A stretch of DNA of 49,939 nt from assembly GCA_020354625.1 (NCBI GenBank), contig CP070651.1, positions 1,319,594-1,369,532 on the forward strand, read 5' to 3'. The stretch is from Trueperaceae bacterium. Its GTDB lineage: Bacteria > Deinococcota > Deinococci > Deinococcales > Trueperaceae. Below the pieces are notes generated by a model that worked only from the letters and a program-made list of their open reading frames with translations, did no database searches and was not told the DNA's origin. A program made the translations under genes and the position numbers. The stretch's first letter is position 1. Every line of letters begins with the position of its first letter. Positions 8,606-19,880 of the stretch are shown in pieces.

Positions 8606-9088
8606 GTGAACTCGATGTCCCCAGAGATCGAGCGGCTGGAGGAACAACTCAAGCGAGCGCTGGAGGGGGAGGCGTGGCATGGGCCGTCTGTGCTGGAGTT
8701 GCTGACGGGCGTCTCTGCGGCTGAGGCGGCTGCTCACCCAATCTCGGGTGCCCACAGCATCTGGGAGATCGTTCTGCATCTGACTACCGACTACATCCTC
8801 GTTCTCCGCCGCCTGTCTGGAGATGGGCGCCGGCTCACGCCGGAAGAGGATTGGCCGCCTTGCCCGGCAGTAACCGAGGAGAACTGGAGGAAGACTGTAC
8901 AGGATCTCACGAAGCTCAACCAGGAGCTTCTTCAGGCAGTCCACGCGTTTCCGGGAGCGCGACTGGACGAGCCGCTCGTGTCAGAGGTGCCGTACACGGC
9001 ATACACGCAGTTCATCGGCATCACCCAGCACAGTCTCTATCACGCCGGTCAGATTGCACTACTCAAACGGGCACTGCACACGGCATGA
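8606..9088 (+). CDS. DinB-like / YfiT-type metal-binding four-helix protein
   Basis: 160 residues. The DinB/YfiT pattern of three spaced histidines is visible: one in the HSIWEIVLHL helix near residues 50-60, and the pair in QHSLYHAGQI near 140-150, which together bind a divalent metal in a four-helix bundle. Functions in the family include thiol S-transferases and damage-inducible proteins of unknown role. Start choice is uncertain: GTG at 8606 (taken here) or ATG at 8615, with AGGATAGGTGA upstream of both. It is monocistronic, directly after a MITE-like repeat. Confidence 0.75.
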   Translation: MNSMSPEIERLEEQLKRALEGEAWHGPSVLELLTGVSAAEAAAHPISGAHSIWEIVLHLTTDYILVLRRLSGDGRRLTPEEDWPPCPAVTEENWRKTVQDLTKLNQELLQAVHAFPGARLDEPLVSEVPYTAYTQFIGITQHSLYHAGQIALLKRALHTA

Positions 9089-11328: not shown

Positions 11329-11405
11329 TGGTGCGCCCGATCCGATTCGAACGGATGACCTTGGGCTTAGGAGTCCCCTGCTCTATCCAGCTGAGCTACG
11401 GGCGC
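11329..11405 (-). tRNA. tRNA-Arg (anticodon CCU)
   Basis: On the minus strand the cloverleaf reads acceptor GCGCCCG paired with CGGGCGC, D-arm GCTC/GAGC, anticodon loop CTCCTAA (anticodon CCT at 11369-11371), T-arm ATCCG-TTCGAAT-CGGAT, discriminator A and an encoded CCA end. The anticodon stem is imperfect: only its three central pairs (GGG with CCC) match, and the outer and inner positions are mismatched. A TACAAT -10 box lies at 11419-11424 on the minus strand. It decodes AGG. Confidence 0.9.
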
Positions 11406-12153: not shown

Positions 12154-14034
12154 TTGTCTGCGTTGGGATTGAATGGGATGACGCAAATGTACGGCCAGAG
12201 TGTGGAGGGTTCGGGCAGGTTGCCTTGGTGGCATGTCCCTGCGGAGAGCGACGCCAGGGTGGGCGCTGCCGGCTTCGACCATTTGAGAGGTCTCCTCTCA
12301 CAAATCCCGAGGGGTAGCGCAGCTGCTGAATACCGGCGTGCCGTCATCTTGATCGAGTTGGGCCGCTTTCAAGAGGCGCTGGAACTCATTCCACACATCG
12401 ATGGGCAGACTTCTGGGCTCGAGGCTTACGGATATCTCCGGGCGGGAAACCTTGAGACTTCTGCACGGTGCGCCGACGCCGCTGCGGCCGGGGTTTGGCT
12501 CAACCGAACGCTGCTCGTACGAGAAGACCTGATGTATCTTTACTTCGTCCGTGGCGTTACCACTCGACCAGAGGGGGCGCGGTGGCATCTCCGTACGGCG
12601 GAGTCGCTCGCCGTCGAACTCGGGATGGTCGATTTCAGGAAGCGGGTTCACGCGGTGGCGGGTAGAACCCTCGAGTTGCTCGATGAGGTGCCGTATCAAC
12701 GTCGTGAGGCCGTCGAAGTCTTCGTCACGCCGGAAGAACGTCTCGAAGACCTCTACCTTCCGGCTTGGTTCGACCAGTTCAAAGAGCACCTCGATCTGAC
12801 TTCGTTCGAAGAGCGCTATCAAATGTTTATGGCTGACCCGGTGGTGAAGTGCCGCAAGGCAGAACTGCTCATCGCTTTGGAGCGCGATCACGAGGCGCTC
12901 GAACTCTTGACGGGTTTGCGGTCGAATCTTGCGTACGGCCTTCAAATGAAGATCTTCGCTTCCCAAGGGAGGAGTGAAAAGGTCGAGGCGATGTTGAGGC
13001 ATTTCACGCCGAGGGGAGAGCTGCTCGCCTTGGAGGGAGCCGTCCACGTGTATGAAAATGCTGCCTGGCTCCACTTCAAAAATGTGCGTTTTGCAGAGGC
13101 GGAAGAAGCACTTTTGAAGGCGGTCGGATTGGCCGAACAACTCGGTCTCAAACGGCGTTTGACGACTCTATCGCTTCATTGGGAGAATGCTCGGACCAAG
13201 TTGGGGGCCGGCGTTCGGGAGGTGTTGGGTGAGGTGAGCCGGGATGTCCGACTCGATGCGTACCGAGAAGAGGTCAAAGTGCGCAGTCTCTTGTTCGCCG
13301 GAGACGCTGCCAACGCCAAGCGGATGGCTCAGGTGGGAGAGATCGGTAAGGGGGCGGCAAGCTTGGTTACTGCGACGGTTCTCTTACACAACAGAAACGA
13401 CTTCGGTGCTTCGTTCGAGATTACCGAAGAGTTCCCACAACTCGCCGAGCAGAGGCTCTTTTGGGGGTTTTTGATGCTCAGCAGCTTTGCGCGCGTCGGT
13501 GAGCGTGCGTATGCCAGTCCGGCGAGGGCGTTCGATGCGGTGCGGTCGAGTCTTCCTGTCCTGGCACTGCCCAAACAGTCGCTGGCTGACGCCAAGGCGC
13601 TCTACCCGCTCGGAATCGCCCTTGCCGCTTACCACCCGAGGCTTTCAGAGGCCCTGGAGCACGTGGCTGCACAGGTGCCGATTCTCCGTAACGATCGTGA
13701 CCGGCACGGGATATTTGTCGCCGGCCACAAGACCCATCTGACCAAACCGGTACGGGATGCGCTCATGCGAGACGGTTTGGAGGGAACTACCCGGCATTTC
13801 GAGCTGGCGACGCAGGGGAGCGCCAACAGTTATAGGAGAACCCGGTACATCAGAGCCTTGAGGGAAGCGGGGATCGAATCCTATCAACTGGTCTGTTTGA
13901 CGGAGCTATGGTCTGGGCTGATGCGTCTCGCCCGAGTGATGCCGCATGTAGGCTGGCAACGGGCGGCAGACGAGTTGCGAGCAGGCTCGAAGAAACTTCG
14001 GCAGTTGACGGCAAATTACCAAGTACCCGACTAG
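12154..14034 (+). CDS. TPR-like helical repeat protein, candidate peptide receptor or regulator
   Basis: Up to 626 residues, almost entirely helical. TPR-like helix pairs are visible near residues 57-82 (AAEYRRAVILIELGRFQEAL), 233-256, 261-284 and 300-330, ending in GLAEQLGLKRR. No HTH, kinase, ATPase or membrane segment is recognisable, and the C-terminal 150 residues match nothing I know. An in-frame TAG at 12136 limits the 5' end; possible starts are TTG 12154, ATG 12178 or ATG 12187, none with a strong ribosome site. It is flanked by two micro-ORFs with signal-peptide-like openings (11588 and 14169), an arrangement that recalls RRNPP peptide/TPR receptor systems. Known of the family: TPRs bind peptides or proteins. 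Inferred: signalling role. Confidence 0.7.
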   Translation: MSALGLNGMTQMYGQSVEGSGRLPWWHVPAESDARVGAAGFDHLRGLLSQIPRGSAAAEYRRAVILIELGRFQEALELIPHIDGQTSGLEAYGYLRAGNLETSARCADAAAAGVWLNRTLLVREDLMYLYFVRGVTTRPEGARWHLRTAESLAVELGMVDFRKRVHAVAGRTLELLDEVPYQRREAVEVFVTPEERLEDLYLPAWFDQFKEHLDLTSFEERYQMFMADPVVKCRKAELLIALERDHEALELLTGLRSNLAYGLQMKIFASQGRSEKVEAMLRHFTPRGELLALEGAVHVYENAAWLHFKNVRFAEAEEALLKAVGLAEQLGLKRRLTTLSLHWENARTKLGAGVREVLGEVSRDVRLDAYREEVKVRSLLFAGDAANAKRMAQVGEIGKGAASLVTATVLLHNRNDFGASFEITEEFPQLAEQRLFWGFLMLSSFARVGERAYASPARAFDAVRSSLPVLALPKQSLADAKALYPLGIALAAYHPRLSEALEHVAAQVPILRNDRDRHGIFVAGHKTHLTKPVRDALMRDGLEGTTRHFELATQGSANSYRRTRYIRALREAGIESYQLVCLTELWSGLMRLARVMPHVGWQRAADELRAGSKKLRQLTANYQVPD

Positions 14035-14168
14035 AGCGCACCGGACAATCCGTACAGTTAAGGGGCCATACCGTTCTGGATGGCCGCTTTGCCAGATGGG
14101 AGCCCCGCCGGAAATCTCAAGCGACCCGGTACTGGGGTGGCAGGGTGGATAACAAAGAGGTGTGCAAT

Positions 14169-14282
14169 ATGAAACAGAGAATCGGACTACGTCCTAATTC
14201 GGCGCTTGCCAAACTGGTTTTGGCCTTGGTCCCCTTGTCGATTCTCGGCATGGCCTTGGCCCAGTGGTGTACGCGCTGCTGA
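14169..14282 (+). CDS. Micro-ORF: secreted-peptide precursor candidate
   Basis: 37 residues. The ATG at 14169 has AAAGAGGTG about 7 nt upstream. The N-terminus is basic (MKQRIGLR), then a hydrophobic core (LAKLVLALVPLSILG) leads to a signal-peptidase-like site MALA, leaving a C-terminal QWCTRC with two cysteines spaced CxxC. This is the architecture of a short peptide-pheromone precursor. It lies 134 bp downstream of the TPR-like gene on the same strand. The opening resembles that of the micro-ORF at 11588. No homologue is known to me; function is inferred from layout only. Confidence 0.45.
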   Translation: MKQRIGLRPNSALAKLVLALVPLSILGMALAQWCTRC

Positions 14283-14631
14283 TCCAGTTGGGGATCGTTC
14301 GTTTACGTGCCGGATAGTCGATTGTAAAGGCACATCTGGCGATTTTGCAGAAATATCGCTCGCGATCCTGCAACACCGCGCGACAGGTCGTGCGGTATCC
14401 TACTTAGCGAGGTGGGCTCCTTACCCAGGGAGTTCCCCTTCTCTTCCATAACGGCACGGTCTTCGCGAGACTTGCCTAGTGCGATCGCGAAGTCGGTTGC
14501 TCCCACAACCCAGCGTGCCGGCAGTCATTGAGGCCTCTTTCGACTGTAAACCCGTCAAGATGCGTGGGGTGCGGTGATCTTCACACGATGTGGTCGCCTG
14601 CCCTGCGTTTTCTCAGGTTGTAAGCGCTACT
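14283..14631. other. Intergenic region without supported genes
   Basis: It separates the micro-ORF (plus) from the convergent aminotransferase (minus). I see no gene, no RNA gene and no clear terminator. Confidence 0.4.
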
Positions 14632-15810
14632 TCAGATCCGCAGTTTTTCCACAAAGACCGACATGCGCGCCAGCGCCTCGTGAATCCGCTCGAGGGGTTG
14701 GAGGTAGCTGAAGCGGATATAGTGCCCGCTATCATCGCCAAAAAGCTCGCCAGGAAACACCATGACCTGGGCTTCGCGGAGCAGAGCCTCACAGAAATCC
14801 GGAGCAGGCATGCCGCTAGCTGAAATGTTGGTATAGAGGTAGAAGGCGCCACCGGGATGCCCGTAGGTAAGCCCCATCGCGTCCATGGCCTCCATCATGA
14901 CCCTGCGCCTCTCAGCGTAGGCGACAAGCATCTGTTCGACGGGTTCCTGGGGACCGGTGAGAGCGGCTAGAGCCGCATGTTGCGAGATGGTGCAGGTGTT
15001 GATCGAGAGCGTGTGACGCGGTTCGGTCACCAAGCGTACGAACGGTTCGGGCGCTGCCAGGTAGCCGATGCGCCAGCCCGTCATGGCGTGGCTCTTCGAA
15101 AAACCGTTGAGAACAATCGTGCGGTCTTTCATGCCGGGCAGGCTACCGATCGAGAGGTGCTCTGAGCCTGGATAGATCAGCTCGGCGTAGATTTCGTCGC
15201 TGATCACGATGAGGTCGTGCTGCAAAGCCAATGCCGCGATCTCACGGATCACGTTCGGGGGCGTTACGGCCCCGGTCGGGTTGTTCGGTGAGACGAGGAC
15301 CAGCACCTTGCTGCGCTCGGTGATCCGGGCCTCGATTTCTGAGGGCATGAGCGCAAAGTCGTCTCTCTCATAGGTGGGGACCGGGACAGCCCGGCCGCCG
15401 CACAGGTGCACAGCGGTATCGTAGGTGGTAAAGCGTGGTGACGTGATCAAGGCCTCGTCGCCCGGATCGATCAGCGCCAGCATACAGAGCATGATCGATT
15501 CTTGAACCCCGGCAGTGACGATGATTTCATCGACGTTATAGGATAAGTCGTACCCTTTGGCGAGTGTATCGGCGATGGCAGCGCGAAGGTCGGGCAAACC
15601 GGCAGGATGTGTGTAGTGGTGCTCGTTTGCGTCGATGGCTCGTTTAGCAGCCTCGACGATATGGCTGGGAGTGTGAAAGTCGGGGTCTCCGCGCCCCATG
15701 GCGATCACATCTTGTTGGCCGGCGGCGATCTCCAACATCTTGGTGCGAAAAGAGACGTCCTCTTCGACGATCCGCTCGGCTCGAGCTTGCAAAAGGGGCG
15801 GCGTAGTCAT
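14632..15810 (-). CDS. Pyridoxal-phosphate aminotransferase, class I/II
   Basis: 392 residues, fold type I. Visible are the NNPTGAVT loop near residues 175-182, the SDEIYAELIY segment that contacts the cofactor ring, and the PLP lysine in SFSKSHAMTGWRIGY. It transfers an amino group between an amino acid and a 2-oxo acid; substrate preference is not readable. The ATG at 15810 has GGAGTG 6 nt upstream. It is divergent from the binding-protein operon at 16334, and the shared upstream region carries the 15-bp palindrome at 16020, so both may answer to the same regulator. It is a paralogue of the gene at 21167. Confidence 0.88.
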   Translation of the reverse strand: MTTPPLLQARAERIVEEDVSFRTKMLEIAAGQQDVIAMGRGDPDFHTPSHIVEAAKRAIDANEHHYTHPAGLPDLRAAIADTLAKGYDLSYNVDEIIVTAGVQESIMLCMLALIDPGDEALITSPRFTTYDTAVHLCGGRAVPVPTYERDDFALMPSEIEARITERSKVLVLVSPNNPTGAVTPPNVIREIAALALQHDLIVISDEIYAELIYPGSEHLSIGSLPGMKDRTIVLNGFSKSHAMTGWRIGYLAAPEPFVRLVTEPRHTLSINTCTISQHAALAALTGPQEPVEQMLVAYAERRRVMMEAMDAMGLTYGHPGGAFYLYTNISASGMPAPDFCEALLREAQVMVFPGELFGDDSGHYIRFSYLQPLERIHEALARMSVFVEKLRI

Positions 15811-16333: not shown

Positions 16334-17938
16334 ATGAGCAAGTTATCGAAGATGTGTGTCGTGCTAATCGCGGCACTGTTCGCAGCCGGATCCTTTGCCG
16401 TGGCGCAAGGCGGCGATCTCGTGATCGCCATGAACGGCTCCAGCGAACCCGCCAACTTGGATAGTCAACTCGATCCGTTCGATTCGGCCAAGGTCCTCAA
16501 TAACCTGGTTGCCGACCGGCTCGTCTTTATCAACCCGGACGGCGCTCAAATCGAGCCCCACCTGGCGACGGGCTGGGAGATCTCTGATGACAATCTGACC
16601 TGGACCTTCACCTTGCGTGAGGACGTAATGTTCCAAGACGGTACCCCCTTCAATGCTGAAGCGGTCAAGGCCAACCTCGAGCGGATCATCTCGCCCGAGA
16701 CCGGTAGTGGCGAAGCAGCCGAGGCGTTGGGTCCGATCGCGTCGGTGGACGTGGTCGACGAGTTCACCGTCACTGTTACCCACGAAAGCCCCTGGAACAG
16801 CTTCCTATACGCTCTGGCTACCCAGGGCGTGATGTGGTCGCCGACGGCGCTAGCGGAGAACACACCTGGTGAGTTTTCCAGTCTCCTCATCGGCACAGGA
16901 CCGTTCAAGTTGGTCGAATGGGTACCGAACAGCCACGTTCGCTTCGAACGTTGGGATGGGTACAATTGGGGTCCTTCCATCAAGCAAGAGCCTGGGCCGG
17001 TGGCGCTCGATAGCGTGACCGTCAAATTCATCGATGAGGAACTGGTTCGCGGCACCATCATCACCACCGACGAGGCCAATGTGGTGTGGGATCTGCCTGC
17101 TCAGTTCGTCGCGGACTACGAAGGCAACTCCGACTACCAGCTCCTCTCGGGTTATCAGGCCGGTACGGGCATGCAGTACGTCATGAACGTGACCCAGCCG
17201 CCGCTCGACAACCTGCTGGTACGCCGGGCCATCCGTCACGCGACAAATCAGGCCGGGCTCAACAATCTCGTATACGACGGTCGTAACCTGGTAATGAACA
17301 CGCCTCTTAATTCGGTGCACCCGTGTTATGCTCCCGAGCTCGAGTCGGTCTACCCCTACGATCTCGACGGGGCCAAGGCGCTGTTGGCCGAGGCGGGATA
17401 TGAGGACCGGAACGGAGACGGCATCGTCGAGGCGTACGGCGTTGCGGGCGTCGAGGACGGCAGCCCGCTGGTAGTCCGTTGGACCGCGCTCAGCAGACAG
17501 GCCAAGGGGGAGGCGCTGCAGGCGCAGTTGCGTCAAGCTGGGATCGATCTCCAGCTCGAGATCATCCCAGGACCGGTGCAGCTCGAGCGCGCTCAGAAAA
17601 AAGACTTCGATCTCATCTACGAACGCCAGCGTATAGCGCTGCCAGAAGTGCTGCACATCGTCTGGTTCTCCGAAAACGACGGCCCTGGCCAGTGGGCCTG
17701 GACGGGCTTCCAAGATGAAGAGCTCGACAGTCTGTTGGAACAGATGATCAACTCGCTCGAGCCGAGCGAGGCGTGTGATCTGGCGCGTCAAGCGCAGCAC
17801 ATCATTCAGGACAATGCCCTGCAACTCCCCACCCTGAGCGAGGCGGTATTCTACGTGCTCGAGAATAACGTTCAGGGCTTCGAGCTCGGTTCCCAGGGCC
17901 TCTGGTTCTACGTCTATAACGCCAGCGTCGAGGAGTAG
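16334..17938 (+). CDS. ABC transporter substrate-binding protein, SBP family 5
   Basis: 534 residues. The ATG at 16334 has AGGGAGG 3 nt upstream. The Sec signal MSKLSKMCVVLIAALFAAGSF ends before AVAQGGD, with no lipobox at the cleavage site, so it is periplasmic. Family 5 features: NGSSEPANLDSQLDPFDSAK near the mature N-terminus, LTWTFTLREDVMFQDGTPFN, LIGTGPFKLVEW, and VRRAIRHATNQAGL. It probably delivers its ligand to the permeases at 18060 and 18999. A cysteine pair (HPCYAPE and EACDLA regions) may stabilise the C-terminal lobe. First gene of the long plus-strand run, with the palindromic operator about 300 bp upstream. Confidence 0.9.
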   Translation: MSKLSKMCVVLIAALFAAGSFAVAQGGDLVIAMNGSSEPANLDSQLDPFDSAKVLNNLVADRLVFINPDGAQIEPHLATGWEISDDNLTWTFTLREDVMFQDGTPFNAEAVKANLERIISPETGSGEAAEALGPIASVDVVDEFTVTVTHESPWNSFLYALATQGVMWSPTALAENTPGEFSSLLIGTGPFKLVEWVPNSHVRFERWDGYNWGPSIKQEPGPVALDSVTVKFIDEELVRGTIITTDEANVVWDLPAQFVADYEGNSDYQLLSGYQAGTGMQYVMNVTQPPLDNLLVRRAIRHATNQAGLNNLVYDGRNLVMNTPLNSVHPCYAPELESVYPYDLDGAKALLAEAGYEDRNGDGIVEAYGVAGVEDGSPLVVRWTALSRQAKGEALQAQLRQAGIDLQLEIIPGPVQLERAQKKDFDLIYERQRIALPEVLHIVWFSENDGPGQWAWTGFQDEELDSLLEQMINSLEPSEACDLARQAQHIIQDNALQLPTLSEAVFYVLENNVQGFELGSQGLWFYVYNASVEE

Positions 17939-17963
17939 TCCCGGGTTCTTTCCCACGAGTGTG

Positions 17964-17994
17964 GTGGTGCGGAGTGGCTCGCTGCCCGCACCAC
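17964..17994 (+). promoter_or_regulatory. Intercistronic stem-loop after binding-protein gene
   Basis: A perfect 9-bp stem (GTGGTGCGG with CCGCACCAC) lies 26 bp after the binding-protein stop and 65 bp before the permease. Only a short T-rich stretch follows, so partial termination or 3'-end protection is more likely than a full stop. Confidence 0.5.
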
Positions 17995-18059
17995 TCATTT
18001 ATTGACGTTCTCAGTACGGCCTGCTTTGCCTGACGGCTCGTTGTCGTCGTAGGAGGCGG

Positions 18060-18992
18060 ATGTTCACCTATACGGTTCGTCGGATTACGGAACTGATTCC
18101 CGTCTTGATCATCGTTTCGGTGATCGTGTTTTCGGTGATGCATCTGCTCCCTGGTGACCCGACCGAGTTGATGCTCGCCGGCGCGGAGGGGGGTGCAGTT
18201 TCTGCCGAGCGGCTCGAGGAATTGCGCGAGGTCATGGGTCTCAACGACCCCCTCTACCAGCAGTTCGGCAATTTCTTTGTAGGCGCTGTACAGGGTGATC
18301 TCGGGACCTCGATCCGTTTCCGTTCGCCCGTGACCGAAATTGTGCTGGACCGCTTCCCTTACACCCTCAGGTTGAGCTTGGCAGGGTTGGCGGTGGCGAT
18401 GCTGATCGGTGTGCCGCTCGGGACGCTCGCTGCCATCAAGCGAAATACCTGGCTCGACAGCTTTAGTATGGCCCTATCTCTGATCGGCGTGTCCATGCCG
18501 ATCTTTTGGTTGGGGCTCCTTCTGATCCTGGTCTTCGCCATCAACTTGCGCTGGTTGCCGACCACCGGGGCGGGGGGGGTGAAGGCGCTGATCATGCCGG
18601 CGTTTACGCTCGGCTTCGTGTCTGCGGCGCTCGTGAGCCGTTTGATTCGAAGTAGTTTGCTCGAGGTGTTGCAAGAAGACTACGTGCGCACGGCGCGCAG
18701 TAAGGGTCTGACGGGTCGCGCGGTCCTTGTTCATCACGCCTTCAAGAACGCGCTGATACCTGTAGTGACCATCATCGGGCTTCAGTTCGGCCATATGCTT
18801 GCGGGGGCTGTGGTAACGGAGACCGTGTTTAGCAGACCGGGCCTGGGGCGCCTGGTGGTCAACGCTATTTTGTGGAAGGATTTCCCCCTGGTTCAGGGGA
18901 CGGTTCTCTTTTTGGCCATCATGTATGTGTTGGTCAACCTCATCGTCGATATTTCCTACGCCTGGCTCGACCCGCGCATTCACTACGGTTGA
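18060..18992 (+). CDS. ABC transporter permease, DppB/OppB family
   Basis: 310 residues. TAGGAGGCGG directly precedes the ATG. Standard DppB architecture: first helix ending VMHLLPGDPTELML, the QGDLGTSIRF stretch, then helices separated by the EAA-type loop near DYVRTARSKGLTGR. The C-terminus VNLIVDISYAWLDPRIHYG is family-typical. It forms the channel with the permease at 18999, which starts 6 bp after this stop. Confidence 0.92.
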   Translation: MFTYTVRRITELIPVLIIVSVIVFSVMHLLPGDPTELMLAGAEGGAVSAERLEELREVMGLNDPLYQQFGNFFVGAVQGDLGTSIRFRSPVTEIVLDRFPYTLRLSLAGLAVAMLIGVPLGTLAAIKRNTWLDSFSMALSLIGVSMPIFWLGLLLILVFAINLRWLPTTGAGGVKALIMPAFTLGFVSAALVSRLIRSSLLEVLQEDYVRTARSKGLTGRAVLVHHAFKNALIPVVTIIGLQFGHMLAGAVVTETVFSRPGLGRLVVNAILWKDFPLVQGTVLFLAIMYVLVNLIVDISYAWLDPRIHYG

Positions 18993-18998
18993 TTTCAG

Positions 18999-19880
18999 AT
19001 GCAGCATTCGGTTACCCAAGACAACTACGATGGCGACGCCACCACGCGGCGTCGTTTGCTGAGGCTCTTTTTTCGAAATAGGGGCGCGGTGATCGGCTTA
19101 TTGGTGCTGTTTTGTTGGATCGTGATCGCTCTCTTTGCACCGTTCTTTTCGCCCTTTAACCCCATCGAAATCGATTTTATCGGCCGGGTGGGGCCTAGTT
19201 GGGAACACCCTTTCGGTACCGACCGCCTGGGCAGAGATCTGTTGAGCCGCGTCTTTTTCGGCGCTCGCATTTCCTTGCTGTTGGGCGTCATCAGCGTCGC
19301 GATCGGGTTGGTGTCGGGGACATTGCTCGGCTTGGTGGCCGGATACTATGGCGGCCGGGTAGAGACCGTGATCATGCGCTTTGTCGACGCGCTGTTGGCG
19401 TTTCCCGGCATCCTGTTGGCCTTGATCGTGATCGCAGTGCTCGGTCCAGGATTGGGCAACGTGATGATCGCTGTCGGCATCTCGACCATCCCCGAGTACG
19501 CCCGCTTGGCTAGAAGCAAGGTTCTTTCGGTCAAGGAGCTCCCCTATATCGAGGCGGTGAAGGGGTTGGGTAGTGCCGGTGGGCGAATCATGTTTCGGCA
19601 TATTCTGCCGAATATCAGCGGTCCGTTGATCGTCCTATCGACGCTGCAGGTCGGCAACGCGATCTTGGTGGGTTCGGGGCTCAGTTTTCTCGGGATGGGT
19701 GCCCAGCCGCCCACCCCGGAGTGGGGGCTGATGACGGCCGAAGGCCGCAACTTTCTCAATCGGGCTTGGTGGATCAGCACCTTTCCTGGGCTCGCCATCC
19801 TCAGTGCGGTGATGGCTATGAATCTGATCGGCGATGGGTTGCGGGAGGCGCTCGACCCCCGCATGAAATTGGATGTATGA
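18999..19880 (+). CDS. ABC transporter permease, DppC/OppC family
   Basis: 293 residues. Diagnostic GTDRLGRDLLSRVFFGARISL follows the first helix and the periplasmic loop; the EAA-type loop is near YIEAVKGLGSAG; the C-terminus is MNLIGDGLREALDPRMK. The ATG is 6 bp after the upstream permease stop, with little ribosome site, so translational coupling is likely. No ATPase gene follows; the next gene is an oxidoreductase. Confidence 0.92.
   Translation: MQHSVTQDNYDGDATTRRRLLRLFFRNRGAVIGLLVLFCWIVIALFAPFFSPFNPIEIDFIGRVGPSWEHPFGTDRLGRDLLSRVFFGARISLLLGVISVAIGLVSGTLLGLVAGYYGGRVETVIMRFVDALLAFPGILLALIVIAVLGPGLGNVMIAVGISTIPEYARLARSKVLSVKELPYIEAVKGLGSAGGRIMFRHILPNISGPLIVLSTLQVGNAILVGSGLSFLGMGAQPPTPEWGLMTAEGRNFLNRAWWISTFPGLAILSAVMAMNLIGDGLREALDPRMKLDV

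Follow-up and report, generated by a model that had tools for sequence, protein, structure and literature searches.

A CxxC-ended peptide precursor paired with a TPR-type protein gene in Trueperaceae: a possible receptor and secreted-peptide cassette in Deinococcota

In a genome of the Trueperaceae (Deinococcota), a gene for a TPR-type protein is followed by a short gene whose predicted product has the anatomy of a secreted peptide precursor and ends in a CxxC motif, and the same arrangement was observed at every complete locus that we identified for relatives of the TPR gene. We propose that the two genes form a receptor and secreted peptide-pheromone cassette that would work like the RRNPP systems of Bacillota, a reading to which we assign a probability of roughly 0.6; membership of the RRNPP family has not been demonstrated. 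Our comparisons establish the pairing of the genes, the anatomy of the precursor, the conservation of its Cys pair, and, for one relative of the TPR protein, the prediction of a TPR-type fold. The stretch of DNA that was analyzed, hereafter the window, comprises 49,939 nucleotides, and the features of the cassette are compiled in the table.

Table. Features of the putative cassette, in window coordinates.
Feature	Position	Strand	Details and basis
TPR protein, proposed peptide receptor	12154..14034	+	Weak Pfam TPR matches, sequence relatives
Shine-Dalgarno-like AGAGGTG	14156..14162	+	Sequence; 6 nt spacer to ATG
Peptide precursor	14169..14282	+	37 aa, ATG start, TGA stop
Predicted signal sequence	14169..14261	+	31 aa, C-terminal A-L-A; by reading; same anatomy in 8/8 members
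Predicted mature hexapeptide QWCTRC	14262..14279	+	After A-x-A site; Cys pair kept in 8/8 members
Weak terminator-like stem over stop codon	14280..14297	+	Pattern scan only
Second weak terminator-like stem	14414-14435		Pattern scan only

The 37-codon ORF encodes the product MKQRIGLRPNSALAKLVLALVPLSILGMALAQWCTRC, which starts with basic residues and continues with a hydrophobic stretch and an A-x-A site ahead of a CxxC-bearing tail of six residues. The residues at positions -3 and -1 ahead of Q32 are both A (MALA/Q), which corresponds to a signal peptidase I pattern as read from the sequence. A preliminary description of this DNA had noted a standard start and a ribosome site for this ORF, and both were confirmed. 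A longer frame of 124 aa that starts at 13908 and runs into the precursor ORF was also listed; the start at 14169 is favored because of its ribosome site and because of the starts used in relatives. A promoter scan of positions 13900-14700 found none, and the number of terminator-like stems (two) compares with 0.4 (sd 0.7) in shuffled sequences, although by pattern scan only. The precursor gene is present as a single copy in its own 4.29 Mb single-contig genome, and when the precursor was used as the sole query against 101 genomes it recovered itself followed by just weak matches, from E = 0.08.

The upstream frame encodes up to 626 aa when read from a TTG, and its true start is uncertain. All of its matches to Pfam TPR models are weak and fall under the gathering cut-offs. 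This gene was absent from the preliminary description, which therefore missed its family as well. Used as the sole query, the window protein has relatives in two of 38 other Trueperaceae genomes, and when 111 genomes of the order and the phylum were searched with a profile of the TPR family, which its own members match by construction, the same three came up; this narrow distribution speaks against the proposed cassette. The search with the window protein listed ten TPR matches, including that of the window; eight of these are complete genes, and the remaining two are a 202-aa fragment and a gene cut off by a contig end. The seven complete relatives of the window gene encode proteins of about 450 or 850 aa, and the four with 447-451 aa match no TPR model.

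The loci in the two other family genomes are those of the Trueperaceae MAGs HKST-UBA01 and Ww127, with letter-for-letter identity over the stretch compared (locus L003 within L052 and L008 within L054). When 84,980 named species genomes were searched by pattern, five loci were returned, all of them in HKST-UBA01 and Ww127; the 850-aa type falls outside the patterns used. The window TPR protein had no match in plasmid and phage collections, the 850-aa type had none in phages, and no IMG/VR viral contig was confirmed in a comparison with the family alignment A2. The three genomes with CxxC cassettes (G000, G024, and G025) exceed all others of the family set in size, at 4.3, 5.6, and 6.0 Mb compared to 1.8-3.8 Mb for the rest. 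Around the cassette, the window encodes a tRNA-Arg (CCT) at 11329-11405 (minus strand), which lies 0.75 kb ahead of the TPR frame, and, at 16334-19880, an SBP_bac_5 solute-binding protein followed by two permease-like ORFs (permeases by reading). This nearby importer was considered as support for the cassette and dropped: the genome contains 58 SBP_bac_5 matches, and the closeness of one of them to the cassette therefore says little.

Each of the eight complete TPR genes is followed, on the same strand and 60-134 bp past its stop codon, by a short precursor ORF (134 bp in the window and 60-86 bp in the other seven). All eight precursors share one anatomy, comprising a ribosome-site motif ahead of the start (GGAG, GAGG, AGGA, or AAGG), a signal sequence, an A/V-x-A site, and a tail of 6-9 residues with CxxC. 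The predicted mature tails are QWCTRC (window), GPDFCTRC (twice), ENCTHC, GDWYVCPRC, GWCANCF, GWCSNCN, and GWCANCY. No CxxC-ended signal-peptide ORF follows the 202-aa TPR fragment. Since the pairing holds for all seven other complete relatives, whereas, among the 5,957 other distinct ORFs (20-130 aa, deduplicated) in the sequence analyzed, only 14 have a CxxC(x0-1) end and none of these 14 passed the signal rule, the association exceeds chance. In an earlier, redundant count, 30 of 4,754 ORFs were CxxC-ended, and the 21 of these with a signal part were copies of the eight family precursors. The ORF rules used here and for the wider TPR set described below (hydrophobic core, A-x-A, and CxxC end) were set after the family had been seen and were altered between counts. 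Furthermore, the eight members cannot be regarded as eight independent cases because they form only three groups.

A profile built from the seven other precursors ranked the window frame first among 1,272 window frames, with a modest E of 0.017. A profile of all eight precursors, which matches its members by construction, identified these eight in 111 genomes at E <= 3e-11, with the next best match at E = 0.025; no further signal-plus-CxxC ORF was detected around 13 of the weak matches (E from 0.025). Five complete cassettes with five different mature peptides were identified in MAG Ww127. The three of the 850-aa type are on whole contigs of this MAG (L041, L044, and L046); they have coding-like flanks in common on both sides, with tails ...SDEDALAILH and ...KHETNLAKLNNLLANLEQS, as if the cassettes had been inserted between copies of one gene. 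By reading, L046 also encodes an apparent Phd/VapB and PIN toxin-antitoxin pair.

Conservation of the Cys pair, which the preliminary description had proposed to check in relatives, extends to all eight members. It had named two refuting conditions, a lack of conservation of the six C-terminal residues and the absence of a predicted signal-peptidase site, and within the reach of computation neither applied. Both Cys are invariant, with variation at the four remaining positions of the hexapeptide, and an A/V-x-A site ahead of the mature part recurs in 8/8 members, based on reading of the alignment rather than on a prediction program. It had also raised cyclization of an N-terminal Gln to pyroglutamate; the mature parts start with Q, G, or E, and this modification would therefore be peculiar to the window member. 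Overall, its interpretation of the ORF as a precursor with a CxxC peptide is supported, with cleavage, secretion, and the disulfide remaining inferences.

In the closest pair of members, whose receptors are 65% identical, five of the 22 signal residues and none of the eight mature residues differ, and within the 850-aa group one or two of the seven mature residues differ and never the Cys. A short, hydrophobic ORF with a basic N-terminus might encode a hydrophobic peptide of the type-I-toxin kind, or it might be a regulatory leader with an irrelevant product. We consider this highly improbable given that the ORF trails a TPR gene in all eight complete loci with its C-terminal Cys pair conserved, that the mature residues of the closest pair are unchanged while the signal part varies, and that no RNA family reached its gathering threshold between positions 9000 and 20000 except for a tRNA.

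CxxC is a classic metal and disulfide motif, and the Cys pair is the sole strictly conserved part of the tail. Both points are compatible with a peptide that functions as an envelope redox or metal-binding miniprotein, either free or membrane-anchored, with the TPR protein as its regulator or assembly partner. This explanation appears unlikely, though, because the A/V-x-A site present in every member would free the peptide, because a mature product of six residues would be very small for a metal or redox job, and because neither a lipobox nor a heme CxxCH motif is present in any of the eight members and no conserved metal or redox neighbor was evident at the loci looked at. In a lipobox, a small residue (G, A, or S) directly precedes the modified Cys; here W, F, N, or V occupies the position ahead of the first Cys in all eight, and a lipoprotein reading was rejected. 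A c-type heme site (CxxCH) was likewise rejected, since the second Cys is followed by a stop, F, N, or Y and by His in none of the eight.

The proposed role of the TPR protein as a peptide receptor was evaluated by structure prediction. The AlphaFold model of a 451-aa relative was good (pLDDT 83.5, pTM 0.70) and that of the window protein was poor (pLDDT 66.9, pTM 0.47). The best VIA match to the 451-aa model among 968 chains was NprR in complex with NprX (Z 13.5, rmsd 5.4, 285 aligned residues), followed by apo NprR (13.2), a proteasome subunit (12.8), MalT (12.7), and phage Rap (12.4). RapF, AimR, and PlcR were within the top 15, and Rap, NprR, PlcR, or AimR accounted for 14 of the best 50 rows. 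Rows within Z 1 of each other are to be treated as tied, and repeat proteins reach a Z of about 13 via their common arrangement alone. A Foldseek search with the same model returned nothing at E <= 0.001 and was led by generic TPR proteins, with TTC7B first, and a Foldseek search against viral models returned generic repeats (best E 0.048). For the window model, the leading matches were a microtubule repeat protein and CHIP-type TPRs, with NprR at ranks 12 and 14 (rmsd 12-13). Given the ties, the repeat-level Z, the Foldseek results, and the matches of the window model, the likeness of the modeled 451-aa relative to NprR is suggestive but not decisive. No DNA-binding domain or HTH family was found in the CxxC-family members that were scanned. 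The last 100 residues of the 451-aa model form a hairpin and helices, and this segment matched nothing above cut-off in Pfam. An OmpR/SARP winged helix was rejected as its identity (hhalign probability 0.1), although this was compared with two sequences only and is barely tested.

The available portions of the literature (PMC10075063, PMC9765709, PMC12700828) describe quorum sensing that relies on TPR receptors and the import of peptides in Bacillota and in the plasmids and phages of these bacteria. The layout summarized in the accessible part of PMC9765709 consists of adjacent receptor and propeptide genes, cleavage by signal peptidase, a C-terminal pheromone, and import by Opp. The cassettes resemble RRNPP(A) systems, of which NprR-NprX is nearest (others being Rap-Phr, PlcR-PapR, and AimR-AimP), in that a TPR-type gene adjoins a short gene for a Sec-type precursor and in that the likely signal of 6-9 residues is at the C-terminus of that precursor. 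The first rank of NprR among the structural matches of the 451-aa relative points the same way but is suggestive only. Like RRNPP(A) propeptides, which have 10-100 aa and a signal for secretion, the adjacent precursor of the window has 37 aa, and judged by anatomy all eight members conform. The cassettes differ in being encoded by Deinococcota rather than Bacillota, in the CxxC pair found in each of their peptides, and in receptors in which no HTH was found and whose C-terminal domain has no assigned fold. An N-terminal HTH is present in most RRNPP(A) members and is optional, being absent in Rap, as far as the available part of PMC12700828 describes.

RRNPP_detector, in the portion of its description available (PMC10075063), requires receptors of 250-500 aa that match TPR HMMs. 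The window protein, with up to 626 aa and TPR matches below cut-off, does not meet this criterion, and the relatives of 447-451 aa fit the size but match no TPR model. Homology to RRNPP proteins was not supported either: the best match to RNPP_C (E = 0.091) fell below cut-off and involved one of the eight members, and a PDB sequence search had no RRNPP receptor among its matches. Because the size and TPR-HMM, homology, and HTH criteria were not met, we do not file the cassette under RRNPP.

TPR-type regulators linked to short peptides are also a property of Rgg/SHP and of the FxSxx-COOH TPR system (the latter taken from an NCBIfam model name only), and Rgg/SHP occurs with radical-SAM RiPPs in streptococci according to the accessible part of PMC13361665. 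The CxxC cassettes differ in having no adjoining radical-SAM gene at the loci read. The model NF040586 matched only one relative, at E = 0.036, and the score of 12.5 bits is far below the cut-off of 300.

A broader set of TPR proteins in Deinococcota is related to the 850-aa type. The N-terminal half of this type is homologous to theirs. It is similar to TPR proteins from two Deinococcus plasmids (28.5 and 26%, E about 5e-19) and to proteins, most of them 810-890 aa long, that many genomes of the phylum encode. At E <= 1e-8, 30 of 111 genomes have a match, including the CxxC-bearing Ww127. Weak scores (E <= 0.1) to Trans_reg_C (9/24) and BTAD (6/24) were obtained for the C-termini scanned, along with PhoB and OmpR entries at E 0.004-0.016, where the top row was a designed protein (E 0.0009). 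A convergent signal-peptide ORF is present at the 3' end of 10 of the 35 wider TPR genes, whereas only 11 of the 155 other genes compared have one (p = 0.001). Members of this set were defined by blastp at E 1e-5 or better, with A9 supplying 24 of the 35; L134 was left out as identical to L133, and L100 and L101 were included manually once their ORFs were already known. Exclusion of these two gave 8/33 versus 11/155 (p = 0.007). Six of the 11 cases among other genes are the same ORFs viewed from the opposite neighbor, and exclusion of these as well gave 8/33 versus 5/155 (p = 0.0003). Kinship exists within the set, in that L138, L145, and L149 are from one genus and L133 and L146 are from one genome. 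These loci differ from the CxxC cassettes in that their peptide ORFs are convergent, longer, and not CxxC-ended and in their DNA-binding-like C-terminus, which hhalign did not match to the CxxC family (two sequences only). The window genome encodes one such TPR protein (L137), without a signal-peptide ORF.

An OmpR/BTAD-like TPR protein, a convergent signal-peptide ORF, and a radical-SAM gene occur together at L100 (3227-8294), L101 (3311-8250), L133, L138, L145, and L149, and on the two Deinococcus plasmids a luciferase-like monooxygenase is also encoded at the TPR/radical-SAM locus. This combination looks like an undescribed peptide locus. A radical-SAM gene adjoins six of the 10 wider loci with a signal-peptide ORF, as in clusters for peptide natural products, which leaves room for an interpretation of the CxxC peptide as a small bacteriocin or modified natural product with the TPR protein as its regulator or immunity factor. 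We nevertheless judge this to be rather improbable, since no modification enzyme was found beside the CxxC cassettes at the loci read, the cassette consists of two genes only, and the mature part has just 6-9 residues. The wider loci suggest, without demonstrating it, that the pairing of a TPR regulator with a secreted peptide is a theme of Deinococcota.

In the signaling cassette that we propose, the TPR protein would be a cytoplasmic receptor, and the pre-peptide encoded downstream would be a Sec substrate that signal peptidase I cleaves. The released peptide of 6-9 residues with its CxxC end, here QWCTRC, would probably be oxidized outside the cell to a small disulfide loop. An oligopeptide ABC importer could then take it back into the cell, where it would bind its partner TPR protein and alter what that protein binds or does. 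Where one genome encodes paralogous cassettes, varied residues on the same CxxC frame may provide private channels. Secretion, cleavage, the disulfide, re-import, binding, and output are each inferred. More tentatively, and with somewhat less than even confidence, Deinococcota may have evolved a TPR-receptor and secreted-peptide signaling of their own that parallels RRNPP of Bacillota, comprising a narrow branch with CxxC pheromones of 6-9 residues, in which the redox state of the disulfide loop could gate recognition, and a broad branch of TPR transcription factors with OmpR/BTAD-like domains and convergent signal-peptide genes, the products of some of which are probably modified by radical-SAM enzymes.

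Searches of the open-access literature for quorum sensing in Trueperaceae or peptide pheromones in Deinococcota, and for RRNPP or quorum sensing in Deinococcus and CxxC pheromones with tetratricopeptide proteins, had no such system among the matches listed. In the absence of experimental data, the recurrence of the gene pairing in relatives suggests an undescribed system of cell-to-cell signaling. CxxC peptides are very small and easily synthesized, and the disulfide may be part of the message. If our interpretation is correct, a receptor-peptide pair in Deinococcota would take imported-peptide signaling to another deep branch, and it could bear on the root of RRNPP(A), which the available portion of PMC12700828 describes as open.
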